Assembly (NCBI GenBank): GCA_040218145.1
Contig: JAVJQK010000087.1
Span: forward strand, 1-55,383
Source: Sandaracinaceae bacterium
GTDB lineage: Bacteria; Myxococcota_A; Polyangia; Polyangiales; Sandaracinaceae
Direction: 5' to 3'
DNA: 55,383 nucleotides
Each line of letters starts with the position of its first letter. The first letter of the stretch is position 1. A model generated the notes under the pieces. The model made no database searches, was not told the DNA's origin, and saw nothing but the letters and a program-made list of their open reading frames with translations. Below, piece by piece: positions 1 through 7,260 of the stretch. Position numbers and translations under genes: made by a program.

Positions 1-143
1 GCGCGCGCCTCGTCGGCGGGACGCCGCGCCCAGCGCGCCAGTCGCTCCTCCGAAATGCTGAAGCATTTCGTCGTCGGCCCGCCGCGCTGGACGCGACGTC
101 GCGCTCGCCGATCCATCACGCGCATCTTCGCCGCGCGCTGCTA
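1..143. repeat. Dispersed palindromic repeat, copy 1 (left end cut by window)
   Basis: A near-perfect palindrome, CGAAATGCTGAAGCATTTCG, lies at 54-73. The flanks match, on the opposite strand, the element at 26879-27045: CCTC before the core, TCGTCG after it, a further CCTCGT...GGCGGGACG block to the left, and an end reading CTGCTAG at 137-143. The distance from core to right end (about 70 bases) agrees with the other copy (about 76). By that comparison the left end would lie about 20 bases outside the window. It carries no reading frame of its own. It is probably a non-autonomous, MITE-like repeat; this is inference from two copies only. Confidence 0.6.
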
Positions 144-314
144 GTGCGAGATCCATCCCGGTAGAAGGGGACCTGGCTTGTCCCGACGCTCCAGGGCGGC
201 GTTGCGCTTCCTCGCCGATGCGGTGCATCGACTCGTCGTCGCGCCTTGCCCTGAATCGCCGGTCCGGCGCCATCTCCCCTTCCACCGGTCGGCTCTCTGC
301 ACTAACTCGGGGCC
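144..314. other. Leader region upstream of glucokinase, no gene seen
   Basis: This stretch between the repeat and glk holds no convincing reading frame, although long high-G+C shadow frames run through it. I see no clear promoter hexamers or ribosome binding site of unusual form. It presumably contains the glk promoter. Confidence 0.4.
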
Positions 315-1292
315 ATGCGGATCCTGGCGGCCGACGTCGGCGGCACGAAGACGATCGTCTCTCTCTTCGAGGGCGCCCCCGGCGGGTGGCGCGAGCTCGC
401 CACGCGCACGGTGGTCAGCGCTGCGTACCCGGGCCTCGCGCCCATCCTCACGGAGCTGCTCGAGGGGCACGACGGGGACGTCGACGCGGGCGCATTCGGC
501 ATCGCGGGCCCCGTCGCGGACGATCACTGCGAGGCGACGAACCTCCCCTGGATCGTCGACGCGCGCGCCCTCGAGCGCGACGTGCCGCGGCTCGGGCGCG
601 CGCGCCTGCTCAACGACTTCGAGGCCGTCGCGCTCGGCCTCGGCGTGCTCGGCGACGATCAGCTGGCCGTGCTCCAGGACCGCCCCGCGCGGGCCGACCA
701 GCCGGCCGCCGTCCTGGGCGCGGGCACGGGGCTGGGCGAAGCGATCTTGCTGCCGGGCGACGGGGCGATGCCGCGCGTCTTCCCGACCGAAGGCGGCCAC
801 ACGGACTTCCCGCCGCGGGACGAGTGGGAGATCGACCTGCTCCGGTTCCTGCAGGCGCGCCACGGCCGCGTGTCCATCGAGCGGGTGGTCTCCGGGCCAG
901 GGCTCGCGGCCATCTACGACTTCCTGGTCGAGACGGGCCGGGGGGCGCGCGTCCCCGAGGTCGACGACGCCCCGGACCGCTCGGCCGCGATCGGCCTCCG
1001 CGGCGCGGAAGGCGCCGACGAGACGTGCGCCATCGCGGTGCGCCGCTTCCTCGGCCTCTACGGCGCCGAGGCGGGGAACCTCGCGCTGAAGTGCCTGCCG
1101 TTCGGCGGGCTCTATGTGGCGGGAGGCATCGCGCCCAAGCTGCTCGGCGCGATCCGGGAGGGGGACTTCATGAAGTCCTTCCTGAACAAGGGCCGCATGG
1201 AGAAGGTCCTCGATCAGCTGCGGGTGATGGTCGTCACGGAGCCCCGCGTGGGGCTGCTCGGGAGCCGACGCGCGGCCAGCGCGCTCCTCTGA
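315..1292 (+). CDS. glk: Glucokinase (Glk family)
   Basis: The 325-residue product matches the bacterial glucokinase family, which phosphorylates glucose with ATP to glucose 6-phosphate in the cytoplasm. Visible landmarks are the N-terminal phosphate loop DVGGTKT (7-13), the catalytic segment N100-D101-F, a GAGTGLGEA loop, the EGGH motif (159-162), and the SGPGLAAIYDFL segment typical of E. coli-type Glk rather than ROK-family sugar kinases. Length is normal (E. coli Glk is 321). The ATG at 315 places the phosphate loop at the usual distance from the N-terminus. It stands alone, 61 bases before the receptor gene, with nothing in the context to suggest a sugar operon. Confidence 0.93.
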   Translation: MRILAADVGGTKTIVSLFEGAPGGWRELATRTVVSAAYPGLAPILTELLEGHDGDVDAGAFGIAGPVADDHCEATNLPWIVDARALERDVPRLGRARLLNDFEAVALGLGVLGDDQLAVLQDRPARADQPAAVLGAGTGLGEAILLPGDGAMPRVFPTEGGHTDFPPRDEWEIDLLRFLQARHGRVSIERVVSGPGLAAIYDFLVETGRGARVPEVDDAPDRSAAIGLRGAEGADETCAIAVRRFLGLYGAEAGNLALKCLPFGGLYVAGGIAPKLLGAIREGDFMKSFLNKGRMEKVLDQLRVMVVTEPRVGLLGSRRAASALL

Positions 1293-1353: not shown

Positions 1354-3921
1354 GTGGTGGGACGCTACGCGTGTGGGCTGGCGGCGGTGATGTGTGCGCT
1401 GGCGCCGGTCGCGTCGGCGCAGGAGCCCGTGCTCACCCCTCCCGAGCTGGAGACCTACGCCGCGGCCGAGCCCCCCGAGGGTGAGCTCGAGGAGCCGGTG
1501 GAGGTGGTCCTCACGCTGACCATCGCGGCGGACGGCACCGTGACCGAGGTGGAGGTCTTCTCGTCGGGCGGCGAGGCGTACGACGCGGCGGCCACCGAGG
1601 CGGGGCGGCGCCTCGTCTTCCAGCCGGCCACGCGCGACGGCGAGGCCATCCCGGCGCGCATCCGCTTCCGCTACACCTTCGAGCCGCCGCCGCCGCCGCC
1701 CGAGCCGGAGGAGCCGCCGCCCCGCGTGGACGGCACCTTCGAGGGGCAGGTCCTCGACGGCGAGGGCGTCCCGGTCGAGGGCGCGCGTCTCTTCCTCGAC
1801 GCCACCGAAGGGAGCGTCAGCCGCCAGGCCACGACCGACGTCGAGGGTCGCTTCACGCTGCCCGCGCTGCCCGCGGGCCAGTATCTCGTCGCGGTCGAGG
1901 CGCCCGAGTTCGCGACCTTCGACGCGACCGAGACGGTCACCGCGGGCGAGGCGCTCAGCGTGACCTATCGGCTGACGCCGGCCGAGGCCGCCGAGGAGGC
2001 CGACGAGGGCCCGGAGCTGGGCGTGACGGCGCAGTTCGAGCGGCCGCGCCGGGAGGCCACGCGTCGCACCATCCCGCGCGAGGCGCTGACCTCGATCCCC
2101 GGGACGCGCGGGGACGCGCTGCGGGTGGTGGAGCTGTTGCCCGGCGTGGCGCGGCCGCCGTTCCTCGCGGGCCTGCTCATCATCCGCGGTGCGGCCCCGC
2201 AGGACAGCGAGGTCTACCTCAACGGCAGCGCGGTCCCGCTCCTCTACCACTTCGGTGGGCTGACGAGCTTCTACAACTCGCGGCTCCTCGAGCGCATCGA
2301 CTTCTACCCGGGCAACTTCGGCGTCCGCTACGGCCGCCGCATCGGCGGCATCCTCGAGGTCGAGCCACGCGACCCCGCGACCGATCGCGTGCACGGCATC
2401 CTGGACATCAACCTCATCGACAGCTCGCTCCTGATCGAGACCCCGCTGGGCGACAACGCCGGCATCGCGATCGCCGCGCGCCGCAGCTACATCGACTTCT
2501 TCTTCTCGGAGGTGGTGCCCGACGACGTCTTCGACGTGCTCGCGGCGCCCGTCTACTACGACTACCAGCTCATCTTCAGCTGGAAGCCGACCCGGCAGGA
2601 CCGCATCCGCGCGCTCGTCTACGGCAGCAGCGACGAGTTCCGCACCATCTTCAACGGCGACGAGTTCTCGCGCCCCTTCGGCCTGAACCTCTCCACCCAG
2701 TTCCACCGCGGTCAGCTCGAGTGGCGCCACGTCTACGACGACGTCTTCCAGCAGGACGTGATGGTCTCCGCCGGCTGGACGGGGCTGGTCATCCAGGCGG
2801 GCGAGGCGTTCGGCTTCGACGCGGACTTCGTGCCGGTCACCGTGCGCACCGAGTGGCAGCTCGCGCTCGCCGACGAGGTGAAGCTGCGCTGGGGCTTCGA
2901 CTGGCTCTTCACCCCGAGCAGCCTCGCCATCCGCGCGGGCACGCCGACCCAGTCCGAGGGCCAGCCGCAGAGCACCGACCCCAACGCGCCGCGCAGCCAG
3001 GAGAACTTCCGGGCCGACGCGTACCGCCCGGCCGTCTACGTGGAGTCCACGCTGCAGCCCTTCGAGCCGCTCACCGTCGTGCTCGGCCTTCGCCTCGACT
3101 ACTACCGCGACATCTCCGACTGGAGCTTCGACCCGCGCATGACCTTCCGCCTCGCGGTCGATCCCCAGTGGACGATCAAGGGCGGCGTGGGCCTCTTCAG
3201 CCAGCCCCCCCAGTTCCAGGAGACCGCGCCCGGGCTCGGCAACCCGGACCTCGACCCGATCACCTCGCTCCACAACAGCCTCGGGGTCGAGTTTCGCTAC
3301 GACCAGACGTGGCGCTTCGAGCTCGACACCTACTACAAGCACATCTTCGATCGCGTGGTCGGCACCGAAGGCGGCCTACCGCCGTTCTTCTCCAACGAGG
3401 GCGTCGGCCGGATCTACGGCGCGGAGCTCGGCGTGCGCGCGGACCCGACCCCGGGCTACCCGATCTACGGCTTCGCCAGCTACACGCTCAGCCGCTCGGA
3501 GCGCCAGGACCGCGGCGGCGACTGGCGGCCGTTCGACTTCGACCAGACCCACATCTTCACCATCGCGCTCGTCTGGCGCATCGGCGACGGCTGGGAGGCA
3601 GGCGGCACCTTCCGGCTGGTCAGCGGCAACCCGTTCACGCCCGTCACCGGCTCGATCTACGACGTCGCGGCCGACACCTACCGCCCGCTCTACGGCGCGG
3701 TGAACAGCGAGCGGAACCCCTTCTTCCACCGCCTGGATCTGCGGATCGAGAAGGTCTTCAACATCGAGAACGTGATGCGGCTCGCCATCTACCTGGACGT
3801 GCAGAACGTCTACAACCAGCAGAACCGCGAGGCGACGACCTACAGCTTCGACTACACCCGGAGCGCGGAGATCCCCGGCCTGCCCATCCTGCCGTCGCTC
3901 GGCATCCGGGGGGAGCTGTGA
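1354..3921 (+). CDS. TonB-dependent receptor with N-terminal TonB-like domain
   Basis: An 855-residue outer-membrane receptor. From a GTG start there is a signal peptide (about 1-22, ending VASA), then a TonB C-terminal-like domain (about 45-110, with ADGTVTEVEV and GRRLVFQPAT), a proline run (111-123), a carboxypeptidase-regulatory-like beta domain (about 127-210), a plug domain (about 230-335, with IRGAAPQDSEVYLNG and FGVRYGRRIGGI), and a long beta-barrel rich in aromatic strands to the C-terminus. Receptors of this kind import siderophores, sugars or other large substrates using energy passed on by TonB; the substrate cannot be read here. A TonB-like domain on the receptor itself is unusual. 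The stop overlaps the next gene's GTG, so the two are probably co-translated. Confidence 0.85.
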   Translation: MVGRYACGLAAVMCALAPVASAQEPVLTPPELETYAAAEPPEGELEEPVEVVLTLTIAADGTVTEVEVFSSGGEAYDAAATEAGRRLVFQPATRDGEAIPARIRFRYTFEPPPPPPEPEEPPPRVDGTFEGQVLDGEGVPVEGARLFLDATEGSVSRQATTDVEGRFTLPALPAGQYLVAVEAPEFATFDATETVTAGEALSVTYRLTPAEAAEEADEGPELGVTAQFERPRREATRRTIPREALTSIPGTRGDALRVVELLPGVARPPFLAGLLIIRGAAPQDSEVYLNGSAVPLLYHFGGLTSFYNSRLLERIDFYPGNFGVRYGRRIGGILEVEPRDPATDRVHGILDINLIDSSLLIETPLGDNAGIAIAARRSYIDFFFSEVVPDDVFDVLAAPVYYDYQLIFSWKPTRQDRIRALVYGSSDEFRTIFNGDEFSRPFGLNLSTQFHRGQLEWRHVYDDVFQQDVMVSAGWTGLVIQAGEAFGFDADFVPVTVRTEWQLALADEVKLRWGFDWLFTPSSLAIRAGTPTQSEGQPQSTDPNAPRSQENFRADAYRPAVYVESTLQPFEPLTVVLGLRLDYYRDISDWSFDPRMTFRLAVDPQWTIKGGVGLFSQPPQFQETAPGLGNPDLDPITSLHNSLGVEFRYDQTWRFELDTYYKHIFDRVVGTEGGLPPFFSNEGVGRIYGAELGVRADPTPGYPIYGFASYTLSRSERQDRGGDWRPFDFDQTHIFTIALVWRIGDGWEAGGTFRLVSGNPFTPVTGSIYDVAADTYRPLYGAVNSERNPFFHRLDLRIEKVFNIENVMRLAIYLDVQNVYNQQNREATTYSFDYTRSAEIPGLPILPSLGIRGEL

Positions 3922-4865
3922 AGAAGCTCTCCCTGCTCCTGGCGCTCCTCGCGGGCGGCTGCGTGATGGACCTGCCCACCGGCGTGCGGGTCGACCGGCC
4001 GCGCGTGCTCGGCGTGCGCGTGGACATCGACGGCGATCCGGAGCGGGCCGCGGCGCGCCCGGGCGACGCGCTGACCCTCCGCTGGCTCGTGGTCGGGCAC
4101 GAGGGCGATCCCCCCGAGTGGTCGAGCGCGATGGCCGCGTGCGTCGCCCGGCCGAGCAACCTCGGCATCCCCACCTGCGACGGCGCCCCCTTCGCGTTTC
4201 AGCTCCCCACCGAGCCGACGGCCGCGCCGAGCTTCGCGTTCGAGATCCCGGGCGACGTCCCGGTCGAAGGGCGGGAGACCGAGATCCTGGTGATCGGCGT
4301 GCTCTGCGCGGGCGGCACGCCGGTGTTCTCGATGGACGATCTCCCGAGCTGCGAAGAAGAGGAGGCGGTCGCCGAGCGATTGATCTTCGCCTTCCCCTTG
4401 GTCGAGACCGACGCCGAGGACGACGCCAACCAGCACCCGAGCCTGGGCGACGAGACCCTCACCATCGACGACACGCCGTGGCCCGCGTCCGACGTGGTGC
4501 CGGAGAGCGGCTGCGCAGGAGGCGACCTCGTGCAGATCCGCGCGCGGGTGGAGGACGAGCCGAGCTTCGTGCGCCTCACCACGTCGCCCTCGGACCGCGA
4601 GATGTACGACGAGGTCGTGCTCGGCGAGATGCCGCGCGTGGTCGAGACCCGAGAGGAGCTGCTCGTGACGCACGTGGCCACGGCCGGGCTCTTCACGCGC
4701 CTGCAGACCGAGGTCTTCGACGACCCTCCGCTCGAGGTCCCATGGCGCCACCCCGAGCCGGAGGAGATCCCGGACGACGGCCTGACGGTGCGCTTCTGGT
4801 TCGTGGCCCGCGATCAGCGCGGCGGCATGGACTGGGTCGAGCGCGCCCTCTGCGTCGTGCCCTGA
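3918..4865 (+). CDS. Putative lipoprotein coupled to the TonB-dependent receptor
   Basis: 315 residues. The GTG at 3918 overlaps the receptor stop (GTGA). The start is followed directly by a charged-hydrophobic signal and the lipobox LLAGGC, with the lipidated Cys at about 15. The mature part is acidic, Cys-containing and predicted soluble, with Ig-like or beta features; I recognise no catalytic motif. The tight coupling suggests it works with the receptor at the outer membrane, perhaps as a surface or periplasmic partner of the imported substrate. That role is inferred from position only. Longer upstream extensions in the same frame run inside the receptor gene and are not credible starts. 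Confidence 0.75.
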   Translation: MKKLSLLLALLAGGCVMDLPTGVRVDRPRVLGVRVDIDGDPERAAARPGDALTLRWLVVGHEGDPPEWSSAMAACVARPSNLGIPTCDGAPFAFQLPTEPTAAPSFAFEIPGDVPVEGRETEILVIGVLCAGGTPVFSMDDLPSCEEEEAVAERLIFAFPLVETDAEDDANQHPSLGDETLTIDDTPWPASDVVPESGCAGGDLVQIRARVEDEPSFVRLTTSPSDREMYDEVVLGEMPRVVETREELLVTHVATAGLFTRLQTEVFDDPPLEVPWRHPEPEEIPDDGLTVRFWFVARDQRGGMDWVERALCVVP

Positions 4866-4871
4866 CAGGCT

Positions 4872-5780
4872 CTATTGCGGACGAGGCGCAGCGGCGCGGA
4901 GGAGGCGGTCGGCGACGGCGCGGCCGAGGCCGCTCGGGTCCGGGAGCGCGACCACGGCGACGTCCACGCCGACCTCGTCCAGCTCCCGGAGCGCGGCGTA
5001 GAGCGCGCGGGCCGCGGCCGCGGGATCGGCGGGCAGCGCGAGCTCTCGCACCACGGCCCCCGAGGCCGCCTCGCGGGCCAGGGTCGATTGCAGATCTTCG
5101 GCCGCCACCGCGAGGACCCGCGCGCGCGGCGCGTAGTGCGAGGGCAGCGTGCCGGGCGCGGCCGTGTCGCCCCCGATCGAGACGGGCCGCCCCAGCGTGG
5201 CCTCCAGCGCCTCGAGCGAGACGCCGCCCGGCCGCAAGAGCCGCGGGGTCTCGCCGCTCAGGTCGACGATGGTCGACTCGACGCCGACCCGGCACGCGCC
5301 GCCGTCGAGGATCAGGTCGACGCGATCCGCGAGCTCGATCGCGACGTGCGCCGCGGTGGTCGGGCTGACCTGCCCGAAGCGGTTCGCGCTCGGCGCCGCG
5401 AGCCCGCCTTCGAAGGCTCGCAAGAGAGATTGCGCCACGGGGTGGTCCGGCACGCGCACGCCCACCGTGGAATGCCCCCCGGTGACCACGTCCGAGACGT
5501 GCGCCGCCTTGGGCACGATGAGGGTCAGCGGGCCGGGCCAGAAGGCGGCGGCGAGCTTCTCCGCATCGTCGCTCCATCGGGCCGCCCAGCGCGCCGCGTC
5601 CTCGGGCGCGGCGAAGTGCACGATGAGCGGGTGGTCGGCCGGCCGGCCCTTGGCGGCGAAGACGCGCCGCACCGCCTCGTCGTTCGCCGCGTCCGCGCCG
5701 AGGCCATAGACGGTCTCGGTCGGGAAGGCGACGAGCCCTCCCGACCGCAGGATCCGCGCGGCTTGCTCGACGGGTCGCAC
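4872..5780 (-). CDS. L-threonylcarbamoyladenylate synthase (Sua5/YwlC type)
   Basis: 302 residues from a GTG start. The N-terminal YrdC domain (about 1-190) shows GGLVAFPTETVYGLGADA and KGRPADHPLIVH, the ATP/threonine/bicarbonate-binding core. The C-terminal 100 residues form the extra Sua5 domain, so this is the long Sua5/YwlC form rather than short TsaC. The enzyme makes threonylcarbamoyl-AMP, the first step of the t6A modification at position 37 of tRNAs reading ANN codons. It lies 31 bases downstream of the AgmX-like gene and is probably transcribed with it. It converges with the receptor-lipoprotein pair (6-base gap). Confidence 0.9.
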   Translation of the reverse strand: MRPVEQAARILRSGGLVAFPTETVYGLGADAANDEAVRRVFAAKGRPADHPLIVHFAAPEDAARWAARWSDDAEKLAAAFWPGPLTLIVPKAAHVSDVVTGGHSTVGVRVPDHPVAQSLLRAFEGGLAAPSANRFGQVSPTTAAHVAIELADRVDLILDGGACRVGVESTIVDLSGETPRLLRPGGVSLEALEATLGRPVSIGGDTAAPGTLPSHYAPRARVLAVAAEDLQSTLAREAASGAVVRELALPADPAAAARALYAALRELDEVGVDVAVVALPDPSGLGRAVADRLLRAAAPRPQ

Positions 5781-5811: not shown

Positions 5812-7260
5812 TCAATCCTGGCGCGCGAACACCATCGGGTACTCGGCCTGGAGCGGGCTCGACGGCCCGCGCCGCAGGCGCACCCGGCTCACCGCGCGGA
5901 CGACGCAGGCGCCGAGCGACTCGGAGCCCGTCGAGTTCTCGACCACGCGCACGCCCGAGAGGTTGCCCATCGGCTGCACGGTCAGGCCGACCTGGATGCG
6001 CCCGGAGAGGTTGGGGTTGCCACGCGTCAGCTCGCCTTCGTAGCAAGCACGCACCGCGCCCATGCGAGCCCGCAGCGCGCGATGCAGCTCGCGCGGGTCG
6101 AAGGTCGGGTCGATGGGGTCCGGGATCCAGCCCGGGCCGCTCGGAGGCCGGACGACGGTGACCACCCGCTCGGGCAGCGGATCGCTCGGCCCCTGCTCTT
6201 CGATGGCGCCCCGGCGAAGGCCGCTCAGCGGCTGCGGGCCCAGGCCACCGCCGGGCGGGCCGCGGCCTTCGCGCTCGTCGATCTGGCCGACGCTGTTGCT
6301 CGCCACGGTGGTGCCCCCGCCCTGCGCGAAGACGTCCTCGGCGCGTTCGGTCGGCGCTCCGTTCTGCAGCACGTTCGCGAACGCACCCGCGATCTCGCTC
6401 TCCGCGCCGATCAACAGGCTCTGAACGTCATCGGCCGCCGCGCGGGCGATCGCGTCGTGGTCCACGGTCGGGCGCGTGTCGGCGGAGCCCTCGCGCAGCG
6501 AGGACGGCGCGCTCGCGTGACGGGGCCGGTCGACCGTCTCCGTCGGCTCCGACGGGAGGTCATCGGCCACCTCGGGCGCGTCGTCGGCGACCGGGTCGTC
6601 CGCGTCCGCGATCGTCGGCGCGTCGTCCGGCGGCGGCGGCGGGGCGATGATCCACTCGACGTGGCGGCTGGGGATCAGCTGCCGCTCCACGGGCCAGTCC
6701 GCTTCGACGACGAACACCACGAGCGCGAAGTGGAGCAGGAACGACGCCGCGACGAAGCTCGAGAAGGTCCAGTCGGTGCCGCCCATCAGCCCGCGCTTGA
6801 GCGACGACGGGAGCTGCGGCTTCGAGCGGGCCGGCGGCCGATCCACGAGCTGGACGAGCACGGAGACGTCGCCGATGACGACCTTCGCCCTCCCCTCGCC
6901 TTCGAGCTTCAGCTCGCGGAAGCCGCCTCGCGCCTCCGCGTCGGCGAGGTCGCCTCGCGACGTGCGACCCGTCCACGCCTCGCGCACCTTCAGGCGCCAC
7001 GCGCCATCCCGGAACGACAGCAGCGGCAGGGGCGGCCCGGCCTTCGACACCGCGAGGGGCACCTCCCCCTCGGGCCCCACGATCACCTCCTGGTCGGGGC
7101 CGCGCACCCCCTCGAGCTCGATGCGACCGTCTCGGACGACGGCGAAGCGGACCCAGCGCGGGCCGCTGGCGACGGGTTGGACGGCGCGCATGACCGCGGT
7201 CATGGCGCCAGGACGGACGGGAACCCTCCCGCCCTGCTCGACGGGCGTCGGCTCGGGCAC
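5812..7260 (-). CDS. AgmX/PglI C-terminal domain protein (TonB-like, membrane-anchored)
   Basis: 482 residues with one membrane segment. Residues 1-150 form a soluble N-terminal domain, possibly FHA-like or beta-rich. A single transmembrane helix (about 166-187) is followed by a proline-rich acidic linker. The C-terminal 100 residues carry the AgmX/PglI-type signature: MGAVRACYEGELTRGNPNLS, then GRIQVGLTVQPMGNLSGVRV. In myxobacteria this domain occurs in proteins linked to adventurous gliding and in other envelope-spanning proteins resembling TonB. The GTG start is supported by GGAGG just upstream. It lies between UbiB-like and Sua5 genes on the same strand. Its specific partner cannot be seen from this locus. 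Confidence 0.75.
   Translation of the reverse strand: MPEPTPVEQGGRVPVRPGAMTAVMRAVQPVASGPRWVRFAVVRDGRIELEGVRGPDQEVIVGPEGEVPLAVSKAGPPLPLLSFRDGAWRLKVREAWTGRTSRGDLADAEARGGFRELKLEGEGRAKVVIGDVSVLVQLVDRPPARSKPQLPSSLKRGLMGGTDWTFSSFVAASFLLHFALVVFVVEADWPVERQLIPSRHVEWIIAPPPPPDDAPTIADADDPVADDAPEVADDLPSEPTETVDRPRHASAPSSLREGSADTRPTVDHDAIARAAADDVQSLLIGAESEIAGAFANVLQNGAPTERAEDVFAQGGGTTVASNSVGQIDEREGRGPPGGGLGPQPLSGLRRGAIEEQGPSDPLPERVVTVVRPPSGPGWIPDPIDPTFDPRELHRALRARMGAVRACYEGELTRGNPNLSGRIQVGLTVQPMGNLSGVRVVENSTGSESLGACVVRAVSRVRLRRGPSSPLQAEYPMVFARQD

Follow-up and report, generated by a model that had tools for sequence, protein, structure and literature searches.

Why should a TonB-dependent receptor carry, near its own N-terminus, a domain of the type found at the C-terminus of TonB? 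The question is raised by a gene in a 55,383-nucleotide stretch of a contig from a Sandaracinaceae bacterium (hereafter the window). Codon use (third-position G+C 0.97) and homology show the open reading frame to be real, and its 855-residue product has both the plug (PF07715) and the barrel (PF00593) of a TonB-dependent receptor, with PF13620 ahead of the plug as in Oar-type receptors (Table 1). The protein is an Oar/SusC-like TonB-dependent outer-membrane transporter belonging to a Myxococcota-wide family. In Pfam scans the carboxypeptidase-regulatory domain (CarboxypepD_reg, PF13620) matched residues 129–207 (59.5 bits; cut-off 32.3) and the barrel residues 430–819 (88.9 bits; cut-off 27), while the plug, at 241–332, scored just below its cut-off of 23.9 when the whole protein was scanned (23.1 bits) but above it when the N-terminal 345 residues were scanned alone (25.0 bits). 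Nearer the N-terminus, the Pfam family TonB_C (PF03544) matched residues 51–109 (34.9 bits; cut-off 24.6) and the NCBIfam model tonB_Cterm (TIGR01352) residues 50–111 (37.8 bits; cut-off 27.1). The run PPPPPP follows this domain directly, within a linker that is fast-changing between the window and its relative at locus L108, and the segment just ahead of the plug keeps its RE in 81 of 81 alignment rows.

Table 1. Features of the receptor gene and its neighbours, in window coordinates
Feature	Position	Strand	Basis or remark
Glucokinase	315–1292		PF02685; ends 61 nt upstream of the receptor
TonB-dependent receptor	1354–3921	+	855 aa, GTG start
Signal peptide, residues 1–23 (...ASAQ)	1354–1422	+	by eye from sequence; no S-x3-H motif
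TonB C-terminal-type domain, residues about 26–112	1429–1689	+	PF03544 and TIGR01352 above cut-offs; structure match
Proline-rich linker, residues 113–127	1690–1734	+	sequence
Carboxypeptidase-regulatory/transthyretin-like domain, residues about 128–212	1735–1989	+	PF13620; match to 5aq0_A
Candidate TonB box ELGVTAQ, residues 221–227	2014–2034	+	position and pattern only
Conserved pre-plug segment, residues 231–239, consensus PPREVTRRT	2044–2070	+	alignment columns
Plug domain, residues 241–345	2074–2388	+	PF07715
Beta barrel, residues 346–855	2389–3918	+	PF00593
Partner lipoprotein	3918–4865	+	315 aa, GTG start; 4-nt overlap with receptor stop; lipobox AGGC, residues 12–15

We modelled residues 24–240 with AlphaFold2 from an alignment of the window protein and 80 relatives, the plug lying outside the model (mean pLDDT 92.6, pTM 0.57). 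Residues about 26–112 adopt the beta-beta-alpha-beta fold of the TonB C-terminal domain (CTD) in this model, which superimposed on the TonB CTD of Neisseria (9ddz; Z 11.4, 2.1 A, 80 of 83 residues), on TonB bound to FoxA (6i97_D; Z 11.2, 2.1 A, 87 of 90 residues) and on 1u07 (E. coli TonB; Z 10.4). A sequence search of the PDB with residues 1–114 gave weak matches only, among them TonB 5lw8 at E 0.91. Model residues 104–187 matched the transthyretin-like domain of carboxypeptidase D (5aq0_A; Z 11.5, 1.3 A) and, since alignments to transthyretin extend as far as the model goes (104..217 on chain 10..125), a strand modelled at residues 233–239 may complete that domain. The candidate TonB box was modelled as a low-confidence loop (pLDDT 67–68 by block). 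The combination of a high pLDDT and a low pTM is consistent with two domains that would be loosely joined by the proline linker.

The preliminary description of this gene had placed a TonB C-terminal-like domain at about residues 45–110 and had set it apart from the STN domain usual on such receptors. Both profiles and the match to solved TonB CTDs bear out the domain, although its N-side limit had been drawn slightly short of the modelled 26–112. An STN-type N-terminal domain was rejected, as the Pfam scan of the window receptor gave no STN match (PF07660) at E-values up to 1 and the structure prediction that had been proposed as a check yielded a TonB fold, neither an STN nor an unrelated domain. 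Sequence and Pfam uphold the order of signal peptide, TonB_C, proline run, carboxypeptidase-regulatory domain and plug, and the suggested survey of myxobacterial receptors found the same order recurring in relatives, with 29–52% identity over the N-terminal part, which excludes a chance match.

How common is this design? Eleven plugs were found in the genome of the window itself (one below cut-off), and four of these ORFs carry TonB_C, namely C87 (the window receptor), C109, C82 and C122. Of 140 genomes sampled from Myxococcota, 96 had a match to the TonB_C domain on its own and, among the matches listed, most sit in ORFs of more than 800 residues. In 54 N-termini of the main type, the window's included, TonB_C was present in 54, the plug in 52 and CarboxypepD_reg in 50; this set was fetched by TonB_C selection, and a less biased count comes from a whole-receptor profile, which matched 35 of 42 Myxococcota genomes. 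Its 84 rows represent 78 receptors, six rows being N-terminal pieces of receptors already listed. At least 46 of the 78 match from model position 34 or earlier, and thus through the TonB domain; six further receptors have a separate N-terminal row (one in another ORF), and the remaining 26 include C109, C82 and C122, which have TonB_C by Pfam, and L190, which does not. The relatives obtained from one contig scan, the best 80 of 329, bear labels that include myxobacterial, deltaproteobacterial and Proteobacteria. TonB_C also occurs on other receptor types, both at L072, which exceeds the cut-off of the MxcH model, and at L039, L055 and L083, whose similarity to the MxcH and ZnuD models is weak and far below cut-off. 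It is absent from L187 (7210–9594) and L190 (3533–5989), receptors of the same family that keep the lipoprotein described below. A free TonB-like frame (L106) was left out of the receptor sets, two receptors cut by contig ends (L088 and L095) out of alignment A2, seven with other plug types out of alignment A3 (54 of 61 rows kept) and 13 such out of alignment A4; L193, a receptor with lipoprotein, is interrupted by a contig end.

The receptor-borne domain keeps the hallmarks of the TonB CTD. Across 133 receptor domains the Y and P of the YP motif have frequencies of 0.80 and 0.94, G61 of 1.0, V63 of 0.97, and F89, P91, A92 and F109 of 0.98 each. Its last strand follows a pattern of its own, R-I-x-Y-R-Y-x-F, which differs from the one in 41 free TonB-type domains; the last strand of TonB is the one that pairs with TonB boxes, as stated for FhuA in PMC11658791. 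An S-x3-H motif in a hydrophobic segment before the domain occurs in 2 of 133 receptors versus 22 of 37 free TonB-type proteins, and the window protein has a signal peptide, recognized by eye, where an energy transducer would have an uncleaved anchor with S-x3-H; nothing in the receptor domain therefore points to a motor link. Purifying selection acts on TonB_C as it does on plug and barrel: the dN/dS of TonB_C between the window and L108 is 0.37, against 0.33 and 0.44 for those domains, and between the window and L107 it is 0.12, a value resting on four differences. The kept core and motifs, the distinctive last strand and the dN/dS favour what would be a functional domain for docking peptides, with a specificity of its own.

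The receptor gene overlaps that of a lipoprotein, which was modelled (pLDDT 92.4, pTM 0.90) as all beta with two Ig-like domains. The model matched many Ig-like sandwiches, with Z up to 8.8; the predicted arrangement is a common one and says nothing on the function of the lipoprotein. None of 69 family members matched Pfam or NCBIfam at E-values up to 0.01, and there was accordingly no SusD/RagB match among them (alignment A6, which leaves out proteins that are shorter than 270 residues, cut, or outside the window and L107–L186). Among 134 receptor loci long enough downstream to contain it, redundant loci included, an HMM of the lipoprotein found a homologue immediately after the receptor in 105, and 55 of the 105 share the 4-nt overlap. 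After clustering at 90% identity, a family lipoprotein adjoins 107 of 133 TonB_C receptors on the same strand, 98 of them downstream, all within 300 nt, and nine upstream; at L109 it lies downstream. Thirteen receptor loci among L187–L206 came from regions picked by lipoprotein matches, and the count is 97 of 123 once representatives from such regions are removed. The window's own genome has just three places that match the lipoprotein profile, each behind a TonB_C receptor; the gene that follows the fourth TonB_C receptor is lipoprotein-like but does not belong to the family.

The family lipoprotein was found at none of 37 control loci of receptors without TonB_C, a set that contains one receptor twice (L045 and L221) and in which most loci come with no more than 1.5 kb of flanking DNA. 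Having some lipoprotein as a neighbour does not by itself set these receptors apart: the same caller places a lipoprotein gene of any kind directly downstream of 81 of 114 receptors in the TonB_C set, but also of 18 of 36 that lack TonB_C. We therefore discarded the idea that any lipoprotein neighbour marks TonB_C receptors, only the particular family being specific. For 26 of the 133 TonB_C receptors, the stretch examined contains no same-strand lipoprotein of the family. Six of the 26 are at a contig edge, seven belong to other receptor types (a different lipoprotein-like gene follows six of these seven), and 13 are left. Nor is TonB_C needed for the link, as L187 and L190 keep the lipoprotein without it. 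Compared with the receptor, the lipoprotein changes more quickly (dN/dS 0.73 and 0.43). Receptor and lipoprotein may well form a two-part transporter.

The order glucokinase, receptor, lipoprotein and opposite-strand pair is kept at L107, from a Sandaracinaceae genome (99% over the receptor N-terminus), and at L108 (47–59% identity). The remaining loci of that search, many with little upstream DNA, gave no glucokinase match; as a neighbour the kinase could hint, weakly, at sugar. By eye, the minus-strand frame at 4872–5780 resembles a Sua5/YrdC threonylcarbamoyl-AMP synthase. A TonB-like protein (5812–7260), about 1 kb past the lipoprotein, also on the minus strand and with synteny kept in L107 and L108, has an AgmX/PglI C-terminal domain (54.5 bits; NCBIfam cut-off 40), TonB_C at 21.4 bits, below cut-off, a membrane segment with SFLLHF and a proline-rich stretch. 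It is a candidate energiser.

Elsewhere, a free TonB-type gene lies upstream and on the same strand at 24 of the 133 non-redundant TonB_C receptors, adjoining the receptor in 20 and standing about 1 kb away in four. At those loci the receptor domain is no substitute for TonB, since a TonB gene stands beside it. Six free TonBs inspected by eye each have a membrane segment, a proline-rich stretch and the C-terminal domain; that of L078 lies downstream of its receptor and that of L079 on the other strand. L078 has a receptor, an ExbB-like frame (by eye) and then TonB (6124–6942), a Ton cluster around a TonB_C receptor. At L197–L203 a TonB-type gene is directly followed by the lipoprotein, and the profiles found no receptor in about 12 kb. 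Recent copying of the domain from a neighbouring TonB was set aside on weak grounds, with six label changes versus 37 by shuffling on a domain tree that has few columns, an unsettled bootstrap and poor resolution.

What, then, does a TonB-type domain do on a receptor? We give roughly even chances to the reading that it is a motorless, tethered peptide-docking domain on a receptor–lipoprotein transporter still driven by ordinary TonB. Inner-membrane TonB–ExbBD would act on the TonB box ahead of the plug, and the pore would open as usual. The receptor's own domain, passive and held in the periplasm on a flexible proline arm, would capture a beta-strand peptide, either a TonB box in cis or in trans or another envelope protein, and this capture would set when and where TonB engages the receptor. 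Passive docking is the most likely role because the domain gives no indication of a motor link, yet keeps the TonB fold and its last strand. The earlier suggestion that the domain recruits plug segments or envelope proteins is likewise plausible, given that the fold, the YP motif and the last strand have been kept. Against docking we count that the window domain lacks the usual Tyr of YP, reading EPP, that TonB_C can be absent (L187 and L190), and that the N-terminal model, at its pTM, neither reveals nor excludes docking in cis. More tentatively, and with some doubt, we propose a self-gating class in which motorless TonB CTDs on receptors across the phylum would serve as outer-membrane-anchored strand hooks that compete with, or hand over to, true TonB, within a three-part Ton module (TonB, TonB_C receptor and lipoprotein of an unnamed family). 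We came across no description of TonB-access control by a receptor-borne strand hook in the literature searched.

It is unlikely, in our judgement, that the domain grips its own or a neighbouring receptor's TonB box at rest and so blocks TonB until substrate binds. TonB domain and candidate TonB box do share a single chain, with some 110 residues between them, and the domain's last strand is conserved, while the candidate box is modelled as a loop; but that loop is of low confidence and contains no strand, and the sole nearby strand (233–239) would sooner complete the transthyretin-like domain than pair with the TonB domain. Less probable again is that the domain raises the local concentration of TonB at the receptor. 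The TonB-type genes upstream in the subset of 24 of 133 would suit this, but in the stretch examined most receptors, that of the window among them, lack such a gene, and receptor and neighbouring TonB domains are not sisters in the pairs visible on the poorly resolved tree. We think it slightly more doubtful still that the domain is a hook for cargo, binding either a protein substrate or the lipoprotein and aiding its movement, by analogy with the TonB homologue FusB, which binds ferredoxin. FusB (PMC7593965) and Oar (PMC6434023) are precedents, and the linked lipoprotein gene offers a possible cargo; against this, lipoprotein pairing persists where the domain is missing (L187 and L190), and Oar without its N-terminal extension still supported PopC secretion, according to PMC6434023. 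An inert relic or spacer is very improbable for, although the domain can be absent (L187 and L190) and eight of 11 matches to the MxcH model begin at model position 91 or later, purifying selection and the core and last strand conserved over 133 domains oppose it.

How receptors gain access to scarce TonB, and how force is transferred to the plug, are open questions for which TonB_C receptors, with ligand and gripper in one chain, are a natural and testable case. The combination of TonB_C receptor and lipoprotein is common in Myxococcota, and the linked lipoprotein family suggests that SusCD is not the only kind of receptor–lipoprotein transporter and that a second kind is common in myxobacteria. 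TonB_C receptors may also be mistaken for TonB proteins by automatic annotation. Four points go beyond the preliminary description: the lipoprotein, how widely the family is spread, the presence of TonB genes next to some relatives, and the MxcH model discussed below.

Among known systems, the STN transducers FpvA and FoxA share a periplasmic N-terminal domain on the receptor, but of another fold. The TonB CTD (PF03544) shares with the receptor domain its fold, its YP, DGxV and FxPA motifs and its last strand; the receptor domain differs in having no inner-membrane anchor or motor motif, and it is N-terminal and tethered by its C-terminal side. In the open-access literature as far as consulted, PMC12204202, PMC11658791, PMC6434023 and PMC9738627 among it, we found no description of a TonB CTD on a receptor or of its lipoprotein. 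Oar of Myxococcus xanthus has the carboxypeptidase-regulatory domain, plug and barrel of the window receptor, but the accessible text of PMC6434023 describes its extension as PF13620 only, unlike the added TonB_C here. The same part of that paper surveys 34,893 receptors with Pfam 31, recognizing five N-terminal architectures built from PF13620/PF13715, STN and AMIN, and TonB_C is not among the domains named there. The design is nevertheless already inside a public model, as the NCBIfam MxcH family (NF038079) begins with a TonB-type domain. Model positions 2–97 match residues 30–123 of the window protein, which with 62.5 bits over this N-terminal stretch only stays far below the MxcH cut-off of 925. 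L072, at 1098.6 bits, is above that cut-off and carries TonB_C at 60.8 bits; it has no carboxypeptidase-regulatory domain in the Pfam listing, and its plug type differs from that of the window protein. The MxcH model gave 11 matches in nine of 282 genomes, one starting at position 2, one at 22 and nine at 52 or later, and from these nine late starts the TonB-type domain appears to come and go in MxcH (L072 only in the Pfam scan). A parallel in gene arrangement is SusCD, in which, as in the window pair, a receptor with a carboxypeptidase-regulatory-type extension is encoded with a lipoprotein. SusD is mostly helical, whereas the partner lipoprotein here is predicted to consist of two Ig-like beta domains.
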